In this document: piece after piece, positions 25,914 to 35,049 of the stretch | Numbering within the stretch: position 1 is the stretch's first letter | Layout of the letters: each line of letters begins with the position of its first letter | Assembly (NCBI RefSeq): GCF_004362405.1 | Contig: NZ_SNXE01000001.1 | Location: 992,001-1,056,000 of the forward strand | Direction: 5' to 3' | Length of the DNA stretch: 64,000 nucleotides | Origin: Roseateles asaccharophilus | Lineage (GTDB): Bacteria > Pseudomonadota > Gammaproteobacteria > Burkholderiales > Burkholderiaceae_C | Notes under the pieces: generated by a model | What the model saw: the letters and a program-made list of their open reading frames with translations, nothing else | Databases searched by the model: none | What the model was told of the DNA's origin: nothing | Program-made: the position numbers and the translations under genes

Positions 25914-25921
25914 GGATAACC

Positions 25922-26004
25922 CTTGTTTCTGACGATGTGTAGCGCAAGTTTGTCATAACGTCAGATTGAGCTCTTGTTTCGACGAAACATCGCTTTCTTT
26001 CGTC
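25922..26004. promoter_or_regulatory. Candidate Lrp-type operator repeats
   Basis: CTTGTTTC occurs at 25922-25929 and 25973-25980, 51 bp apart. The second copy forms a perfect palindrome GTTTCG-A-CGAAAC (25976-25988). An inverted TTTCGTC lies near 25998. Spacing of about five helical turns fits wrapping around an Lrp octamer. The sites lie between the divergent regulator and lysine operon. Confidence 0.45.
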
Positions 26005-26068
26005 CGCACTCATTCCTAGACTGCGCCCCATTCCGGACCGCATTTCTTTGGATACGAGGAGACACCCC

Positions 26069-27163
26069 ATGAAGATCGCCCTGCTCGGCGCCGGCCACAT
26101 CGGCCAGACCATCGCCCGCCTGCTGCACGCCACCGGCGACTACCAGGTCACCGTGATCGACAAGAACGCCAAGTACCTGGCCGTGCTGGCGGCCGAGGGC
26201 ATTGCCACCGCCGAGGTGGACACCGCCCACCACGGCGCCCTCGCCGCCCAGCTGCGCGGCAAGGACGCGGTGGTCAATGCGCTGCCCTACCACCTGGCCA
26301 TCACCGCCGCCACCCTGGCACGCGAATGCGGCTGCCACTACTTCGACCTGACCGAGGACGTGGCCGCCACCAAGGCCATCAAGGAGCTGGCCCAGGGCAG
26401 CAAGACCGCCTTCATGCCGCAGTGCGGCCTGGCGCCGGGCTTCATCGGCATCGTGGCCCATCATCTGGCCAAGCAGTTCGACGAGGTGCGCGATGTACAG
26501 ATGCGCGTGGGCGCGCTGCCGGCCTTCCCCACCAACAAGCTCAAGTACAACCTGACCTGGTCGGTGGACGGCCTGATCAACGAGTACTGCCATCCCTGCG
26601 AGGCCATCCATGGCGGCGAGTTCATCTCGGCCCTGCCGCTGGAAGGTTTGGAGCATTTCTCGCTGGACGGCGTGGAGTACGAGGCCTTCAACACCTCGGG
26701 CGGCCTGGGCACCCTGTGCGAGACCTGGTCCGGCAAGGTCAAGAACCTGGACTACAAGACCGTGCGCTACCCCGGCCACCGCGATCTGATGAAGTTCCTG
26801 CTGGAAGACCTGGGCTTGGCCGCCGACCAGGAGAAGCTCAAGGACATCATGCGCAAGAGCATGCCCGCCACCATGCAGGACGTGGTGCTGGTCTTCGTCA
26901 CCGTCTCGGGCATGAAGAACGGCACCCTGTTGCAGGAGGTGTTCGCCCGCAAGATCTTCGCCGAGCGCGATGCCAAGTCGCCGCTCTCCGCCATCCAGAT
27001 CACCACGGCCGCCGGCATCTGCGCCGCCGTGGACCTGTTCCGCGAGGGCAAGCTGCCCCAGCAGGGCTTCATCCGTCAGGAAGAGGTACAGCTGCCGGAG
27101 TTCCTGGCCAACCGCTTCGGCAAGGCCTATCAGCAGTCGCGCCAGGTCGAGAGCATCGGCTGA
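26069..27163 (+). CDS. Saccharopine dehydrogenase family / lysine 6-dehydrogenase-like enzyme
   Basis: A 364-residue NAD(P)-dependent enzyme with Rossmann motif IALLGAGHIGQTIARLL, VVNALPYHLAITAATLAREC, and the conserved MPQCGLAPGFIGIVAHHLAK region. By size and motifs it matches lysine 6-dehydrogenases, which oxidise the epsilon-amino group of lysine to give 2-aminoadipate semialdehyde / piperideine-6-carboxylate. A saccharopine-oxidising role is the alternative. It is first in a four-gene operon whose later products fit degradation of that semialdehyde, which favours lysine as substrate. The ATG follows GAGGAG (gaggagacacccc). Confidence 0.85.
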   Translation: MKIALLGAGHIGQTIARLLHATGDYQVTVIDKNAKYLAVLAAEGIATAEVDTAHHGALAAQLRGKDAVVNALPYHLAITAATLARECGCHYFDLTEDVAATKAIKELAQGSKTAFMPQCGLAPGFIGIVAHHLAKQFDEVRDVQMRVGALPAFPTNKLKYNLTWSVDGLINEYCHPCEAIHGGEFISALPLEGLEHFSLDGVEYEAFNTSGGLGTLCETWSGKVKNLDYKTVRYPGHRDLMKFLLEDLGLAADQEKLKDIMRKSMPATMQDVVLVFVTVSGMKNGTLLQEVFARKIFAERDAKSPLSAIQITTAAGICAAVDLFREGKLPQQGFIRQEEVQLPEFLANRFGKAYQQSRQVESIG

Positions 27164-27177
27164 AGGAAAATCGATTC

Positions 27178-28695
27178 ATGAGCAAGCAAACCCAAGACCT
27201 CCTGAGCGCCCTGGGCGTTCCCAGCAGCGCCTACACCGGCGGCAGCCTGATCGTGCGCAGCCCCATCGACGGCGCGCAGATCGGTGCCGTGCCCGAGGCC
27301 AGCGCTGCCGACATGACCGCGGCCATCGCCCGCGCCCAGGCCGCCTTCCTGCAATGGCGCACCGTGCCCGCGCCCAAGCGCGGCGAGCTGGTGCGCCTCT
27401 TTGGCGAGGAGCTGCGCGCCCACAAGATGGACCTGGCCCGCCTGGTCTCGCTGGAGGCCGGCAAGGTCACGAGCGAGGGCGAGGGCGAGGTGCAGGAGAT
27501 GATCGACATCTGCGACTTCGCCGTCGGCCTCTCGCGCCAGCTGCATGGCCTGACCATCGCCAGCGAGCGCCCCGGCCACCGCATGATGGAGCAGTACCTG
27601 CCCCTGGGCGTGGTGGGCATCATCTCGGCCTTCAACTTCCCGGTGGCGGTCTGGGCCTGGAACTCGGCCCTGGCCCTGGTCTGCGGCGATCCCTGCGTCT
27701 GGAAGCCCAGCGAGAAGACGCCGCTCACCGCCCTGGCCACCCAGGCCCTGTTCGACAAGGCCCTGGCCCGCTACCAGGCGGCCGGCCATGCCGCGCCTGA
27801 TCACCTGTCCCAGCTGCTGATCGGCGGCGCCGCCGTGGGTGAGGCCCTGGTGGACGATGCCCGCGTGGCCCTGGTTTCGGCCACCGGCTCCACCCGCATG
27901 GGCCGCGCCGTGGGCCCGCGCGTGGCGGCGCGCTTCGGCCGCTGCCTGCTGGAACTGGGCGGCAACAACGCCATCATCGTGACGCCCAGCGCCGACCTGG
28001 ACTTGGCCGTGCGCGGCATCCTCTTTGGCGCCTATGGCACCGCCGGCCAGCGCTGCACCACCACGCGCCGCCTGATCGCGCACGAGACCATCCATGACGA
28101 GCTGGTGGCCCGCCTGGACCGCGCCCGCGCCCAGCTCAAGATCGGCTCGCCCATCGAGGCCGGCAATCTGATCGGCCCGCTGATCGACCAGGGCGCCTTC
28201 GATGCCATGCAGAAGGCCCTGGCCGCCGCGCGCGAGCAGGGCGGCGAGGTGAGCGGCGGCGGCCGTGCCCTGGCCGAGCAGTACCCCGAGGCCTGGTACG
28301 CCGTGCCGGCCCTGGTGCGCATGCCGGCCCAGACCGAGATCGTCAAGCACGAGACCTTCGCGCCCATCCTGTACACGCTGAAGTACAAGAGCCTGGGCGA
28401 GGCCATCGCGCTGCAGAACGAGGTGCCGCAAGGCCTGTCCTCGGCCATCTTCACCAATGACATCCGCGAGGCCGAGCTCTTTGTCTCGGCCAGCGGCTCG
28501 GACTGCGGCATCGCCAATGTGAACATCGGCACCTCCGGCGCCGAGATCGGTGGCGCCTTCGGCGGCGAGAAGGAAACCGGCGGCGGCCGCGAGTCCGGCT
28601 CCGACGCCTGGAAGGCCTATATGCGCCGTACCACCAACACGGTGAACTACTCGCGTGAGCTGCCGCTCGCACAGGGCGTCAAGTTCGACGTCTGA
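27178..28695 (+). CDS. ALDH7-type aldehyde dehydrogenase (2-aminoadipate semialdehyde / P6C dehydrogenase)
   Basis: The 505-residue product is a full aldehyde dehydrogenase: NAD-binding GIISAFNFPVAVWAWN and VWKPSEKTPL, GSTRMGRAVGPRVAARFG, general base Glu in LELGGNNAIIV and catalytic Cys in GTAGQRCTTTRR. These wordings are those of the ALDH7 (antiquitin) subfamily, which oxidises 2-aminoadipate 6-semialdehyde to 2-aminoadipate. It begins 14 bp after the lysine dehydrogenase-like gene. ATG 27178 is chosen by family N-terminus; the frame is open far upstream but overlaps the previous gene. Confidence 0.92.
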   Translation: MSKQTQDLLSALGVPSSAYTGGSLIVRSPIDGAQIGAVPEASAADMTAAIARAQAAFLQWRTVPAPKRGELVRLFGEELRAHKMDLARLVSLEAGKVTSEGEGEVQEMIDICDFAVGLSRQLHGLTIASERPGHRMMEQYLPLGVVGIISAFNFPVAVWAWNSALALVCGDPCVWKPSEKTPLTALATQALFDKALARYQAAGHAAPDHLSQLLIGGAAVGEALVDDARVALVSATGSTRMGRAVGPRVAARFGRCLLELGGNNAIIVTPSADLDLAVRGILFGAYGTAGQRCTTTRRLIAHETIHDELVARLDRARAQLKIGSPIEAGNLIGPLIDQGAFDAMQKALAAAREQGGEVSGGGRALAEQYPEAWYAVPALVRMPAQTEIVKHETFAPILYTLKYKSLGEAIALQNEVPQGLSSAIFTNDIREAELFVSASGSDCGIANVNIGTSGAEIGGAFGGEKETGGGRESGSDAWKAYMRRTTNTVNYSRELPLAQGVKFDV

Positions 28696-28713
28696 TTGCT
28701 TCTATCCTTGACA

Positions 28714-28738
28714 CGCCCCGCCCCTGCGGGGCGTTCTT
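28714..28738 (+). terminator. Intra-operon hairpin, possible partial terminator
   Basis: CGCCCCGC (28714-28721) pairs perfectly with GCGGGGCG (28726-28733) around a CCCT loop, followed by TTCTTCC. It lies in the 61-bp gap between the aldehyde dehydrogenase and DUF1338 genes. The weak T-run suggests partial termination or an mRNA stability element. Confidence 0.55.
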
Positions 28739-28756
28739 CCATCTGGAGTTCCTGAG

Positions 28757-29785
28757 ATGACGACGAATCCCCTGGAGACGGGCCTCTTCCGCCTCCTGTC
28801 TTCCCTGCTCGGCGAGGCCGAGGCCCAGACCGCTTTCGCGCAGCTGCAGCTGCTGCCGGCCCTGCTGCAGCCGGTGGGCGAGCGCGTGACGCGCGCCGAG
28901 CTGGCCCAGGCCCTGAACATGGCCCTGTTCGTGGACGTGACCCGCCGCGTGCCGGCCGGCGCGGCCTATGTGGCCGACTGCCAGCGCGCCGGCCAGCGCC
29001 TGGTCTTTGACCATGGCGCCCTGCGCACCGTGGCCTGGCCCAGCGGCGCCCTGCCGCCCGGCGAGGCCGCCATCACCCGCGTGCTGCGCCCTCTGGGCTT
29101 TGCTCATGCCGAGACCTATCCGCTGACCCGGCTCAAGATGACGGGCCGCAGCTGGCGCCACCAGGACTTCCCGGAGGACATCGCCCAGTTCTTCGTCTCC
29201 GAGCTGCACCCCGAGCAGTTCAGCGGCGAGTTCCAGGCCGCGGTGAGCCGTGTGATCGGCGCCTCGCGCGACCCGCTGGGGCCCGAGGATCTGGCCGCGC
29301 TGGAGCGTCTGGCGCGCGACAAGCAGCTGCCCTGGGGCGAGGCTCTGCGCCTGCTGCCGCGCCTGCGCGCCTGCTTTGAGCGCCAGCATGGCGTGTTCGA
29401 GCTGGCCGACTACGAGCGCCTGCTGGCCGAGTCCGCCGAGATGGCCTGGATCGCCACCGAGGGCAATGCCTTCAACCACGCCACCGACCGCGTTGCCAAT
29501 ATCGAAGCCGTGGCCGATCTGCAGCGCGCCCTGGATCGTCCCATCAAGGACACGATCGAGACCTCCAAGAGCGGCCGCGTGCGCCAGACCGCCTTCCGCG
29601 CGGCGACGGTGCAGCGCCAGTTCCTGCATGAGGGCCAGCTGCTCAGCCGCAGCGTGCCGGGCAGCTTCCACGAGTTCATCCAGCGCGAGCGCGACGAGCA
29701 GGGCCTGGACCTGCGCTTCGACGCGGGCAATGCCACCGGCATCTTCAAGATGACGGCCGGCGCCGCGCCGGCCGAGGCCTGCTGA
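28757..29785 (+). CDS. DUF1338 / HglS-type 2-oxoadipate dioxygenase/decarboxylase
   Basis: The 342-residue protein belongs to DUF1338, whose characterised member HglS of Pseudomonas putida is an Fe(II) enzyme converting 2-oxoadipate to D-2-hydroxyglutarate. The expected metal ligands are His86 (RLVFDHGALRTV), His241 (GNAFNHATDRV) and Glu306 (GSFHEFIQRE), with substrate-binding Arg90 four residues after the first His. The position pattern matches HglS as I recall it (H70, R74, H226, E294). It is followed after 1 bp by a D-2-hydroxyglutarate dehydrogenase-like gene, which would use its product. Confidence 0.9.
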   Translation: MTTNPLETGLFRLLSSLLGEAEAQTAFAQLQLLPALLQPVGERVTRAELAQALNMALFVDVTRRVPAGAAYVADCQRAGQRLVFDHGALRTVAWPSGALPPGEAAITRVLRPLGFAHAETYPLTRLKMTGRSWRHQDFPEDIAQFFVSELHPEQFSGEFQAAVSRVIGASRDPLGPEDLAALERLARDKQLPWGEALRLLPRLRACFERQHGVFELADYERLLAESAEMAWIATEGNAFNHATDRVANIEAVADLQRALDRPIKDTIETSKSGRVRQTAFRAATVQRQFLHEGQLLSRSVPGSFHEFIQRERDEQGLDLRFDAGNATGIFKMTAGAAPAEAC

Positions 29786-29786
29786 G

Positions 29787-31193
29787 ATGAGCCCGGCCTT
29801 TCTCGAGGCGGCCCGCGCCATCGTCGGGCCGGAGTTCGCGCTGGCGGGCTCGGACATCGAGCCGCGCTATCTGGAGCCGGCGCGTTATGCGCCGGGCCAG
29901 GCCGCGGCCCTGCTGCGTCCGGCCACCGCGACCCAGGTGGCCGAGCTGGTGGCCCTGGCCGCCGCGCATGACCTGACCCTGGTGCCCCAGGGCGCACACA
30001 CCGGCCTGGTGCGCGCCGCCACGCCCACCGATGCCGGCCGCCATGTGCTGCTGGCCACCGACCGGCTGCGCGAGCACTTCGATTTCGACCCGCTGGACCG
30101 CACGCTGCGCGTCTCCGCCGGCTACAAGCTCAGCGAGATCAATGAAAGGCTGGAGCCCGAAGGCCTGTTCTTTCCCATCGACCTGAGCGCTGACCCCAGC
30201 GTGGGCGGCATGCTGGCCCACAACACCGGCGGCACTCGCATGCTGCGCTATGGCGATGTGCGGGCCAACACCCTGGGCCTCGCCGTGGTCCTGCCCCAGG
30301 GCCAGGTCTTGCAAGCCGGCCGCGGCCTGCAGAAGGACAACACCGGTCTGGCCCTGCAGCAGCTCTTTGTGGGCAGCTCGGGCTCGCTGGGCCTGATCAC
30401 CGAGGCCACGCTCAAGCTGCACCCGCTGCCGCGCCAGCGTGCCGCGGCCCTGGTGGCGCCGGCCGATGTGGAGTCCGTTCTGCCGCTGTATCAGGCCCTG
30501 ATGGCCAGCGAGCTGGCCGGCCTGGTCAGCGCCTTCGAGGGCATCTCCAGGCCCGCGCTGCAGGCGGCGCTGGAACATCTGGGCGATGCAGGAAAGCTCT
30601 TCGATGGCCAACTGCCCGAGTACGCCCTGCTGATTGAGCTGGCCAGCGAGCTGCCGGCCGCGCGGCTGGACCTGAATGCGTTGCTGCAGGAGGTGCTGGA
30701 GCGCGAGTTCGAGAGTGGCCGCGTGGTCGATGCCGTGATAGGCGCCGACGAGGAGATCTGGGCCCTGCGCCACAGCATCAGCGAGGGCCTGCGCGACTGG
30801 GGCAAGGTGATCGGCTTCGACATCTCCCTGCCGCGCCGCCACTTCATGCGCTTTCGCGCCGAGGGTGCGGTCTGGCTGGCCAAGCATTTCCCGCCGGCGC
30901 GCCTGGCGGACTTTGGCCATCTGGGCGATGGCGGCCTGCACTTCAACCTGGCCTGGCCGCATGAGGCGCCGCCGCTGGACGCCGAGGCCATGGCGCGTCT
31001 GCGCGCCGGCATCAATGACATCGTGCTGCGCCTGGGCGGCAGCTTCAGCGCCGAGCATGGTGTCGGGCCGCAGATCCAGCAGGCCTACTGGCAGCTGAGC
31101 GATCCGGTGGGCCTGCGCCTGGCGGGCGAGATCCAGGTCTTGCTAAACCCCAAGCAGACCCTGGGCCTGACGCGATTTGGGCCCGCCGAATGA
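29787..31193 (+). CDS. FAD-linked D-2-hydroxyglutarate dehydrogenase-like oxidoreductase
   Basis: The 468-residue flavoprotein is of the GlcD/D2HGDH (VAO-type) family: FAD-binding PCMH domain with TLVPQGAHTGLVRAATPTDA, SAGYKLSEINERL, PSVGGMLAHNTGGTRMLRYG and LFVGSSGSLGLITEATLKLH. The C-terminal cap carries FGHLGDGGLHFNL and the SAEHGVG motif. It would oxidise D-2-hydroxyglutarate to 2-oxoglutarate, the last step from lysine here. Lactate or glycolate are alternative family substrates, but the operon favours D-2-hydroxyglutarate. Last gene of the operon. Confidence 0.88.
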   Translation: MSPAFLEAARAIVGPEFALAGSDIEPRYLEPARYAPGQAAALLRPATATQVAELVALAAAHDLTLVPQGAHTGLVRAATPTDAGRHVLLATDRLREHFDFDPLDRTLRVSAGYKLSEINERLEPEGLFFPIDLSADPSVGGMLAHNTGGTRMLRYGDVRANTLGLAVVLPQGQVLQAGRGLQKDNTGLALQQLFVGSSGSLGLITEATLKLHPLPRQRAAALVAPADVESVLPLYQALMASELAGLVSAFEGISRPALQAALEHLGDAGKLFDGQLPEYALLIELASELPAARLDLNALLQEVLEREFESGRVVDAVIGADEEIWALRHSISEGLRDWGKVIGFDISLPRRHFMRFRAEGAVWLAKHFPPARLADFGHLGDGGLHFNLAWPHEAPPLDAEAMARLRAGINDIVLRLGGSFSAEHGVGPQIQQAYWQLSDPVGLRLAGEIQVLLNPKQTLGLTRFGPAE

Positions 31194-31305: not shown

Positions 31306-31390
<85 letters not shown>

Positions 31391-31396
31391 AATACG

Positions 31397-31430
31397 AAGG
31401 CCAGCACGCAAGTGCTGGCCTTTTCGTTTT
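31397..31430 (+). terminator. Rho-independent terminator of tRNA-Leu
   Basis: GGCCAGCAC (31399-31407) and GTGCTGGCC (31412-31420) form a perfect 9-bp stem with a GCAA loop, followed by TTTTCGTTTT. It starts 9 bp after the tRNA. Confidence 0.9.
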
Positions 31431-32603: not shown

Positions 32604-32737
32604 CGCAGGCCGCTGCGCTTGAGTGCCTGCAGGCGCTGCGCGCCTGCACGATGACGGCCAGGTCCGTGGCGCGCACGGTGGGCCAACGCGGGCTGCGATA
32701 CTTCCTGCCATCAACAAGAAGTAGCAGGAGTTCTGCG

Positions 32738-33523
32738 GTGGAGACTTTGCATATCGCGGTGGATCAGCGCGGCGTGGCGCGCCTGACCATGACCCGTCCG
32801 GAGGTGTTCAACGCCTTCAACGAAGCCATGATCGACGAGATGGCCCAGGCCGTGGCGCGCCTGTCGGCCGACCCGCATGTGCGCATCGTCGTGCTGGCAG
32901 GAGCCGGCAAGGCCTTCAGCGCCGGCGCGGATCTGCAATGGATGCAGCGTGCCGCCCAGGCCACGCAGGACGTCAATCTGGAAGATGCACGGCGCTTTGC
33001 CGGCATGCTGCAGGCCCTGGCGGACTGCCCCAAGCCCACGCTGGCGCGGGTGCATGGCCTGGCCCTGGGGGGCGGGGTGGGGCTGGCGGCGGCCTGCGAT
33101 ATCGCCCTGGCCACGCCGGACGCCAAGTTCGCCGTCAGCGAGGCGCGCTTCGGCATCCTGCCCGCCGTGATCGGCCCCTATGTGATCAATGCCGTGGGGC
33201 CGCGCCAGGCACGCCGCCTGGCCCTCACCGCCAGCCGCATTCCGGCCTCCGAGGCCCTGGCCCTGGGCCTGGTGCAGGAGGTGGCGGAGGACATCGACGC
33301 CGCGCTGGAGCGCTGGATTGCCGAGCTGCTGCTCAATGGCCCCGGCGCCTTGGGCGAGATCAAGGCCCTGTTTGCCCAGCTTGAGGTGGGGCCCGTCACG
33401 CCCGCAGTGCGCGAGCTGACGGCCCAGACCATCGCCCGCGTGCGCATGGGCCAGGAGGCCCGCGAGGGCTTTGCGGCCTTTCTGGCCAAGCGGCCCGCCG
33501 CCTGGGTGCCCCACAAGGATTGA
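32738..33523 (+). CDS. Enoyl-CoA hydratase/isomerase family protein
   Basis: A 261-residue crotonase-fold enzyme: oxyanion-hole loops AGAGKAFSAGADLQWMQRAA and HGLALGGGVGLAAACDIALA, and a likely catalytic Glu in FAVSEARFGILPAVIGPYV. The SAGADLQWM wording resembles methylglutaconyl-CoA hydratases of leucine breakdown, but other enoyl-CoA substrates are possible. The start is taken as GTG 32738 because AGGAG lies 7 nt before it and the crotonase N-terminus starts there. The 3-hydroxyacyl-CoA dehydrogenase gene follows after 14 bp, giving two consecutive beta-oxidation steps. Confidence 0.9.
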   Translation: METLHIAVDQRGVARLTMTRPEVFNAFNEAMIDEMAQAVARLSADPHVRIVVLAGAGKAFSAGADLQWMQRAAQATQDVNLEDARRFAGMLQALADCPKPTLARVHGLALGGGVGLAAACDIALATPDAKFAVSEARFGILPAVIGPYVINAVGPRQARRLALTASRIPASEALALGLVQEVAEDIDAALERWIAELLLNGPGALGEIKALFAQLEVGPVTPAVRELTAQTIARVRMGQEAREGFAAFLAKRPAAWVPHKD

Positions 33524-33537
33524 GGACGGATAGCTTG

Positions 33538-35049
33538 ATGAGCGATTGGATTGTTGCGAAGCGCCCCGCGGCCGAGGCCGCCGTGGGCGTGATCGGGGCC
33601 GGCGTCATGGGCGCCGGCATTGCCCAGGTGGCGGCCCAGGCCGGCCACCCGGTGTTGCTGCTGGATGTGCGCGAGGGCGCGGCCGCCGCCGCCATTGCGC
33701 AGATCGCCAAGGGCATGGACGGCCTGGTGGCCAAGGGCCGCATGGCGGCCGAGGAGCGCGAGGCCGTGATGGCCCGCATCCGCCCCGCCAGTGCCACCGC
33801 CGAGCTGCGCGAGACCGCCCTGGTGGTGGAGGTGATCGTGGAGAAGCTGGAGCCCAAGCAGGCCCTGCTGCGCGAGCTCGATGCCCTGCTGCCGCCGGGC
33901 GCCATCATCGCGTCCAACACCTCCTCCATCAGCATCACCGCCCTGGCCAATGGCATGGCCGATCCCGGCCGCCTGGTGGGCATGCACTTCTTCAACCCCG
34001 TGCCGTTGATGAAGCTGGTGGAAGTGGTCTCCGGGGCCGAGACCGCACCCTCGGTGGCCGAGGTCATCTTTGAGCTGGCGCGCCGCTGGGGCAAGACACC
34101 CGTGCATGCCAAGAGCACGCCCGGCTTCATCGTCAACCGCATCGCCCGGCCCTATTACGCCGAGACCCTGGCCCTGTTGCTGGAGCAGGCCGGCACGCCG
34201 GCTCAAGCGGATCGCGCACTGCGTGGCGCGGGTTTCCGCATGGGGCCTTGCGAGCTGATGGACCTGATAGGGCATGACACCAACTTCCTGGTCACGCAGT
34301 CGGTGTTCGAGGCCAATTTTGGCGATAAGCGCTATATGCCCTCCCTGGTGCAGCGCGCCCTGGTGGACGGTGGGCGTCTGGGCCGCAAGGTGGGCAAGGG
34401 CTTCTACGAGGGCCTGCCTGCCGCGGCGGTGCCGGTGGCCGCGCCTACGGGCCCAGCGCCCCAGCCCACGCTCTGCGGCCGCGGCGGTCTGGTCGATGTG
34501 CTGGCCGGCTGGCTCACGCACAAGGGCATTGCCTTCGCGCGCGGCGAGTCGGCCGACTGGTGCGGTCTGCAGCTGGGCGAGCTTCAGCTGCATCTGAGCA
34601 GCGGCCGCAGCGCGGCTCAGCTGGCGCATGAGCGCCAGCATCCGGCCCTGGCCGTGATCGACTGGGTGCTGGCCCCCGACCGCTGCGACGCCCTGGCCCT
34701 GGCCTATGCGCCTCAGGTCAGCGCCGAACAGCGCGCCGAGGCCGAGGACCTGCTGCGTCATCTGGGCTGGGAGCCCCTGGTGCTGCGCGATGTGCCGGGC
34801 CTGGCCGTGGCGCGCACCCTGGCCATGCTGGTGAACGAGGGCGCCGATGCCGTCTGGCAGGGCGTCTGCGACGAGGCCGGTGCCGACACCGCGATGAAGC
34901 TGGGTGTGAACTACCCGGCCGGCCCCTTCGAGTGGCTGGCCCAGCTGGGCGCGCCCGTGGTGGTGGAGCTGCTGGACGGCTTGTTCGCCGCCTACCGCAG
35001 CGAGCGCTACCGCGTCAGCCCCTTGCTGCAGCAGCGACGCTGGTCCTGA
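33538..35049 (+). CDS. 3-hydroxyacyl-CoA dehydrogenase (PaaH-like, two C-terminal domains)
   Basis: The 503-residue enzyme oxidises 3-hydroxyacyl-CoA with NAD. The Rossmann domain begins VIGAGVMGAGIAQVAAQAG, followed by VEVIVEKLEPKQALLRELD, ASNTSSISITALA, catalytic His in GMHFFNPVPLMKLVEVVSG and STPGFIVNRIARPYYAE. A second 3HCDH domain ends the protein (GVNYPAGPFEWLAQLG). The duplicated C-terminal domain and length are those of PaaH/PaaC-type enzymes of aromatic acid degradation. No other paa genes are adjacent. It is co-transcribed with the enoyl-CoA hydratase gene. Confidence 0.9.
   Translation: MSDWIVAKRPAAEAAVGVIGAGVMGAGIAQVAAQAGHPVLLLDVREGAAAAAIAQIAKGMDGLVAKGRMAAEEREAVMARIRPASATAELRETALVVEVIVEKLEPKQALLRELDALLPPGAIIASNTSSISITALANGMADPGRLVGMHFFNPVPLMKLVEVVSGAETAPSVAEVIFELARRWGKTPVHAKSTPGFIVNRIARPYYAETLALLLEQAGTPAQADRALRGAGFRMGPCELMDLIGHDTNFLVTQSVFEANFGDKRYMPSLVQRALVDGGRLGRKVGKGFYEGLPAAAVPVAAPTGPAPQPTLCGRGGLVDVLAGWLTHKGIAFARGESADWCGLQLGELQLHLSSGRSAAQLAHERQHPALAVIDWVLAPDRCDALALAYAPQVSAEQRAEAEDLLRHLGWEPLVLRDVPGLAVARTLAMLVNEGADAVWQGVCDEAGADTAMKLGVNYPAGPFEWLAQLGAPVVVELLDGLFAAYRSERYRVSPLLQQRRWS

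Follow-up and report, generated by a model that had tools for sequence, protein, structure and literature searches.

In Ruegeria pomeroyi, the lysine dehydrogenase gene lysdh and the gene aasadh have been assigned to SPO0234 and SPO0235, and several genes of both lysine pathways of this organism have been verified experimentally (PMC4334477). HglS of Pseudomonas putida and FLO7 of rice, both DUF1338 proteins, have each been demonstrated to produce 2-hydroxyglutarate, and activity on 2-oxoadipate has been predicted for those DUF1338 proteins that retain the substrate arginine (PMC7286885). Here we describe a locus in which genes of these two kinds stand together. It lies in a 64-kb stretch of DNA (hereafter the window) from the 4.36-Mb genome of Roseateles asaccharophilus (contig NZ_SNXE01000001.1, positions 992,001 to 1,056,000) and consists of four plus-strand genes in series with a divergent gene for an Lrp/AsnC-family regulator (Table 1). 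Open reading frames and Pfam searches confirmed both the genes and the families listed in a first-pass annotation of the window. Very likely, the locus is a catabolic operon leading from L-lysine to 2-oxoglutarate, entered through a lysine 6-dehydrogenase and left through an HglS-type enzyme.

In the pathway proposed from these family placements, the dehydrogenase (gene 1) would use NAD(P)+ to take the epsilon-amino group off L-lysine as ammonia and leave 2-aminoadipate semialdehyde or piperideine-6-carboxylate, and the ALDH7 enzyme (gene 2) would oxidise this product to L-2-aminoadipate. A LysN-like aminotransferase encoded elsewhere would then form 2-oxoadipate, which the HglS-type Fe(II) enzyme (gene 3) would decarboxylate and hydroxylate with O2 to D-2-hydroxyglutarate; finally, the flavoprotein (gene 4) would oxidise D-2-hydroxyglutarate to 2-oxoglutarate. 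Every step is known chemistry, and the novelty lies in a gene arrangement that recurs in related bacteria. Thus, the earlier claim of a distinct L-lysine pathway layout holds for the arrangement but not for the chemistry, since the R. pomeroyi pair (PMC4334477) and HglS (PMC7286885) were already known. A lysine 6-dehydrogenase joined to HglS was not found described in the literature that we searched by title and abstract, a search whose coverage excludes most subscription papers. The lysine definitions of GapMind reportedly allow a chain of steps from lysine 6-dehydrogenase to HglS, and Neshich et al. are said to have described bacterial lysine dehydrogenase operons in 2013.

Predicted functions of the operon genes

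The Pfam domains of gene 1 are the N and C domains of Sacchrp_dh. By sequence, by profile, by Foldseek and by structural alignment with VIA-align, its top full-length solved relative is the L-lysine 6-dehydrogenase of Pyrococcus horikoshii, PDB 3ABI. The sequence of gene 1 matched 3ABI at 1.6e-21, and a profile of 29 proteins matched it at 2.2e-34, as against 6.2e-14 for human saccharopine dehydrogenase. The predicted fold, with a mean local confidence score (pLDDT) of 90.7, aligned to 3ABI over 339 residues with Z 39.1 and a root-mean-square deviation of 2.4; the corresponding Z values were 33.4 for carboxyspermidine dehydrogenase 8DEB and 32.2 for human saccharopine dehydrogenase. These comparisons support gene 1 as a lysine-6-dehydrogenase-type entry enzyme, as first suggested, with oxidation of L-lysine at the 6-amino group as its predicted reaction. 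Carboxyspermidine dehydrogenase was rejected as an identity for gene 1; the fold is near, but the profile match is only 2.6e-5, and the remaining operon genes fall outside the polyamine families. Gene 2 scored 818.9 bits on NCBIfam NF050084 (piperidine-6-carboxylate dehydrogenase), above the curated equivalog cut-off of 730, in agreement with its earlier placement as an ALDH7 semialdehyde dehydrogenase.

Gene 3 scored 81 bits on the Pfam HGLS family, above the gathering cut-off of 25. It failed the NCBIfam HglS equivalog NF050083 (22.4 bits against a cut-off of 600), a 436-position model (Myco_VOC_HglS) of the longer form of the protein. Its sequence matched 3IUZ from Ralstonia at 1.8e-107, and a profile built on the 42-protein DUF1338 alignment described below matched FLO7 of rice (6W1K) at 3.7e-41 and HglS of P. 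putida (6W1G) at 2e-11. The predicted fold (pLDDT 95.7) gave the same order, with Z 44.5 for 3IUZ, 29.6 for FLO7 6W1K and 23.1 for HglS 6W1H; 3IUZ is described in PMC7286885 as lacking biochemical characterisation. The metal triad H86/H241/E306 and the arginine R90, given exactly so in the first-pass annotation, were unchanged in all 42 aligned DUF1338 proteins, a selection from those extracted that comprises the window's protein, 33 of long type and 8 of short type. In profile alignments all four positions lined up with FLO7, and H86, R90 and H241 with P. putida HglS. Because the two histidines, the glutamate and the arginine are invariant, which is the criterion used in PMC7286885, an HglS-type function is supported for gene 3, with conversion of 2-oxoadipate to D-2-hydroxyglutarate as the predicted reaction.

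Gene 4 is closest to 3PM9 (9.2e-68) and to human D-2-hydroxyglutarate dehydrogenase (D-2HGDH) 6LPN (2.7e-53). In an alignment of 26 flavoproteins (that of the window together with 25 drawn from 40 extracted DUF1338-linked proteins), R328, H378, H385, N387, E423 and H424 were invariant. Among these, R328, H378, H385, E423 and H424 correspond, by eye, to the human set that binds zinc and the C1 carboxylate and hydroxyl (Arg386, His434, His441, Glu475 and His476). Gene 4 therefore retains the fold family and the zinc and C1-carboxylate residues of the D-2HGDH-like flavoprotein first proposed, and it is probable that it works like a D-2-hydroxyacid dehydrogenase, its role with D-2-hydroxyglutarate resting on gene context.

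Linkage in other genomes

Neighbourhoods of DUF1338 genes were compared by tblastn in the best 80 of 328 relatives, a set enriched for the window's close kin; at one end of 10 of these loci the flank was shorter than 2.5 kb. The closest loci were from Roseateles/Paucibacter-like Burkholderiales. Among genes that shared the strand of DUF1338 and lay within 4 kb of it, the dehydrogenase was present in 25 of the 80 loci, ALDH7 in 51 and the flavoprotein in 41; an aminotransferase lay within 6 kb in 26, and 8 loci had none of these four partners. To set these counts against a wider background, 300 genomes of the order were searched for both genes; the window's genome was excluded, leaving 299, and 11 genomes whose dehydrogenase matches were weak (E >1e-5) were dropped before counting. 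A strong dehydrogenase match was found in 35 genomes and a DUF1338 protein in 29. Both were found in 17, against 3.4 expected (P 5e-11, a value that ignores relatedness), and in 12 of these 17 the two genes were within 3 kb of each other. The pairing is thus recurrent within Burkholderiales, where the first-pass annotation had proposed that it be sought.

Loci were also fetched around 35 dehydrogenase genes of the order and examined by tblastn. ALDH7 was adjacent in 27, and 12 loci held a DUF1338 gene, which was of the long type in three and of the short 3LHO type in nine. The short-type genes sit before or after the dehydrogenase-ALDH7 pair, in other families. The flavoprotein was not seen in these 12 loci, apart from a weak match in L152. 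When the presence of DUF1338 was mapped on a quick tree of 51 of the 61 dehydrogenases, 7 changes were required, and branches with good support enforce no fewer than 4 of these; the pairing has therefore been gained or lost several times, with several long branches leaving the details unsure.

Other arrangements were seen among the DUF1338 loci. Those of Burkholderia type (L028:9017-10243, L059:13070-15718, L026:10453-11661 and similar) carry a LysN-like aminotransferase and ALDH7 but lack a lysine dehydrogenase in the vicinity. A further gene, for a DAO-type flavin adenine dinucleotide (FAD) oxidase, is present in five Paraburkholderia loci and suggests entry from pipecolate or D-lysine. Nine loci from Planctomycetota, Acidobacteria and Holophagaceae (L030, L044, L045, L048, L050, L053, L069, L077 and L079) have DUF1338 and the flavoprotein without dehydrogenase or ALDH7 within 4 kb. 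An apparent 474-amino-acid gene before DUF1338 in Planctomycetota was discarded; in L053 it is, by eye, the shadow of an opposite-strand frame that reads like a LysR regulator. In the Herbaspirillum loci L058 and L072, ATP-binding cassette permease, Lrp and family-3 solute-binding genes lie beside the dehydrogenase-DUF1338 pair; the best model for the L072 binding protein was lysine/arginine/ornithine, at 90 bits and below the cut-off of 256.

The aminotransferase step

The first-pass annotation held that only a 2-aminoadipate aminotransferase was missing from the operon, and no such frame was found there among the open frames of the window. With the DUF1338-linked aminotransferase of Caballeronia (L028) as query, 8 places in the own genome were matched, all outside the window. 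The best match, G000:C1:99334-100443 (37% identity, 223 bits), itself matched the Thermus 2-aminoadipate transaminase LysN (2EGY) at 7.7e-97, with two archaeal aminotransferases scoring slightly better. This gene is a LysN-like candidate for the missing step, its specificity being predicted from these matches.

Genes near the operon in some relatives were considered for the same role and rejected. A pyridoxal phosphate (PLP) gene adjoins the operon in L006 and L018; the L018 protein is best matched by a MocR-like transcription factor, below the model cut-off, and the L006 gene is only its cluster-mate, so neither was counted as an aminotransferase. The gene after ALDH in L072 best matched cis-3-hydroxy-L-proline dehydratase, below cut-off. 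After this Herbaspirillum locus (L072:10617-12309), two genes resemble the two halves of that dehydratase, again below the curated cut-off.

Regulation

The best NCBIfam model for the Lrp/AsnC protein was LysM, at 80 bits and below the cut-off of 180. A relative of this regulator lies beside the dehydrogenase in each of the 25 dehydrogenase-bearing DUF1338 loci: 23 have it divergent, and two have both genes on one strand. The palindrome in the divergent region (Table 1) is an inverted repeat, not compared with shuffled sequences. In a loose search, for which no chance level was computed, a TTTCG/CGAAA-type pattern was present in 18 of 24 intergenic regions (the window and 23 relatives) and absent from 6; TGACGA-n-CGTCA-type elements were also noted by eye in the intergenic alignment. 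A promoter scan found no sigma-70-like site. Control of the operon is probably exerted by the Lrp-type regulator, and lysine would be the presumed inducer.

Alternative interpretations

Several observations speak against an L-lysine catabolic operon of the kind proposed. In the order, a DUF1338 match is missing from 18 of the 35 genomes that carry the dehydrogenase. A second draw covered the class (369 genomes, 368 after exclusion of the window's own; dehydrogenase threshold E <1e-70; counted by eye) and gave 45 dehydrogenase carriers, 28 DUF1338 carriers and 5 genomes with both, against 3.4 expected, which is no clear excess; in 3 of the 5 the genes are less than 2 kb apart on one contig, and these three genomes belong to a single family outside the window's order. 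The association is therefore strong in the window's order, and in the data at hand a clear excess is seen only there. No DUF1338 gene was found in 23 of the 35 fetched dehydrogenase loci, some of which are short. The candidate aminotransferase lies about 0.9 Mb from the operon and may serve other amino acids, and the genome has an Orn/Lys/Arg decarboxylase-family gene, so that another lysine route is possible. To these are added the substrate pocket of gene 4 and a hairpin after gene 2, each of which bears on a different explanation of part of the locus.

The altered pocket of the gene 4 flavoprotein is the least expected part of the locus. In human D-2HGDH, Lys401 forms a salt bridge to the C5 carboxylate of the substrate; this residue is strictly conserved among orthologues of D-2HGDH, and small residues take its place in GlcD and most D-lactate dehydrogenases (D-LDHs) (PMC7801405). 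An equivalent is absent from all 26 aligned flavoproteins, 10 of which have Gly and 16 Ala at position 343, and gene 4 is for this reason filed as D-2HGDH-like, without proven membership of that group; the name first given to it rests on context. In addition, the same genome encodes a D-2HGDH-like paralogue (G000:C4:231961-233340), 37-39% identical to gene 4, which in a pairwise alignment has Lys opposite Gly343 and could do the last step instead. Gene 4 would then be D-lactate or glycolate dehydrogenase-like, which we consider unlikely. The positions of human Thr390 (Ser in 24, Thr in 1, Gly in 1), Tyr432 (Phe in 18, Tyr in 8) and Asn443 (Asn in 26) are mostly kept, unlike in GlcD and D-LDHs as described in PMC7801405, and the linkage of the flavoprotein to DUF1338 within 4 kb extends over several phyla. 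Arg350 and His329 are also invariant in the 26 proteins, and our guess is that Arg350 stands in for the canonical lysine. The flavoprotein group is directly testable for D-2-hydroxyglutarate handling and would be useful to work on enzymes of 2-hydroxyglutarate.

An explanation of lower probability is that the operon mainly makes 2-aminoadipate as an osmolyte, or clears piperideine-6-carboxylate derived from pipecolate or D-lysine, with the HglS and flavoprotein genes forming a separate transcription unit. The hairpin that lies in the gap after gene 2 (-19.6 kcal/mol, z -5.4, with 0 of 200 shuffles as stable) fits such a division, as does its counterpart in the relative L004, which is followed by five T (z -4.8 for the folded stretch); that of L018 is less unusual (z -1.95). 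In the window itself no T run in the gap is longer than 2, and the hairpin was not listed by a terminator scan. The lysine dehydrogenase of R. pomeroyi leads to aminoadipate at high salt (PMC4334477), and the Burkholderia-type and Paraburkholderia loci described above, with DUF1338 in the company of an aminotransferase and ALDH7 or of the FAD oxidase, point the same way. Against a separate unit, 8 of the 22 relatives with the same gene order and readable ends have an ALDH gene that runs 1-8 bases into DUF1338 (the other 14 have gaps of 14-191 bases), in other families the short-type DUF1338 lies on one side or the other of this dehydrogenase-ALDH7 pair, and the dehydrogenase and DUF1338 genes are neighbours in most co-occurring genomes of the order. 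The operon may thus be partly split after gene 2 in the window, and it is clearly tight in some relatives. As to the earlier description of one operon, the four genes are consecutive and on the same strand; a single transcript is uncertain because of the hairpin in the gap after gene 2.

A saccharopine route needs a lysine-ketoglutarate reductase, and a PF05222 search of the own genome returned a single protein, which scored as PntA; the genome therefore has no reductase of that family, although one outside PF05222 would be missed. It is very improbable that gene 1 is a glutamate-forming saccharopine dehydrogenase partnered by such a reductase, the arrangement used by plants and animals: the superfamily is common to both, the Pfam domains carry the name, and the human, yeast and Magnaporthe enzymes are matched by profile and, with Z no higher than 32.2, by fold, but 3ABI is the better full-length match by each measure and the compared saccharopine dehydrogenase chains have 435-449 residues against 364 amino acids in gene 1. 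Where the first gene bears the name 'saccharopine dehydrogenase' from its Pfam domains, a genome could be misread as a user of the saccharopine route.

With the L-lysine catabolic operon kept as the preferred interpretation, a broader proposal can be made, which is quite possible if somewhat short of probable. Two DUF1338 subtypes would have been placed repeatedly beside one lysine 6-dehydrogenase-ALDH7 pair, completing a pathway from L-lysine to 2-oxoglutarate, and the linked flavoprotein would be a separate D-2-hydroxyglutarate dehydrogenase subfamily that grips the distal carboxylate in another way, perhaps by Arg350.

Features of the locus

Two frames further downstream in the window read, by eye from their translations, like an enoyl-CoA hydratase (32651-33523) and a 3-hydroxyacyl-CoA dehydrogenase (33520-35049).

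Table 1. Coordinates of the putative lysine operon and adjoining features, in positions of the window
Feature	Position	Strand	Basis or remark
Lrp/AsnC-family regulator, 149 aa	25464..25913	-	Pfam AsnC_trans_reg and HTH_AsnC-type
Divergent intergenic region, 155 bases	25914..26068	.	Palindrome TGTTTCG-A-CGAAACA at 25975-25989, possible regulator site
Gene 1: predicted L-lysine 6-dehydrogenase-type NAD(P) enzyme, 364 aa	26069..27163	+	Sacchrp_dh N and C domains; 3ABI match
Gene 2: ALDH7-type L-2-aminoadipate-semialdehyde / piperideine-6-carboxylate dehydrogenase (predicted), 505 aa	27178..28695	+	Aldedh; NCBIfam NF050084
Hairpin in 61-base gap between ALDH and DUF1338 genes	28710..28736	+	Folding compared with shuffles
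Gene 3: predicted HglS-type DUF1338 2-oxoadipate dioxygenase/decarboxylase, 342 aa	28757..29785	+	Pfam HGLS; H86/H241/E306, R90
Gene 4: FAD D-2-hydroxyacid dehydrogenase, probable non-canonical D-2-hydroxyglutarate dehydrogenase, 468 aa	29787..31193	+	FAD_binding_4 and FAD-oxidase_C
tRNA-Leu(cag), downstream of gene 4	31306-31390
Terminator-like hairpin 3' of tRNA-Leu(cag), downstream limit of locus	31396..31423	+

Comparison with known systems

Like the window, SPO0234-SPO0235 of R. pomeroyi joins a lysine dehydrogenase to an aminoadipate-semialdehyde dehydrogenase (PMC4334477), and an N-domain of a dehydrogenase from R. pomeroyi (3IC5) shares 48% identity with the beginning of gene 1. Unlike in the window, no HglS or flavoprotein is named beside this pair in the available part of that report (PMC4334477). 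The P. horikoshii enzyme 3ABI is alike in whole fold and in length, but it is archaeal and only 23% identical to gene 1. The Burkholderia and Caballeronia loci share relatives of DUF1338 and ALDH7 with the window; they differ in carrying the aminotransferase (L028 also a LysR gene) and in having no dehydrogenase within 4 kb.

At the exit of the pathway, gene 4 resembles human D-2HGDH 6LPN in fold family and in the zinc and C1-carboxylate residues, and differs from it in having no Lys401 equivalent and in the extra Arg350, invariant among the operon-type proteins aligned. Gene 3 has the DUF1338 fold, the metal site of two histidines and a glutamate and the substrate arginine in common with P. 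putida HglS and rice FLO7, and D-2-hydroxyglutarate is the expected product (PMC7286885). P. putida HglS is a 464-residue chain, as against 342 amino acids in gene 3, whose fold is nearer to FLO7 and nearest to 3IUZ of Ralstonia. Gene 3 sits with a lysine 6-dehydrogenase, whereas the HglS route of P. putida begins at D-lysine; if the assignment made here is true, the HglS route is not bound to D-lysine, and a set of Burkholderiales and one further family would use it to complete a pathway entered by L-lysine dehydrogenase.

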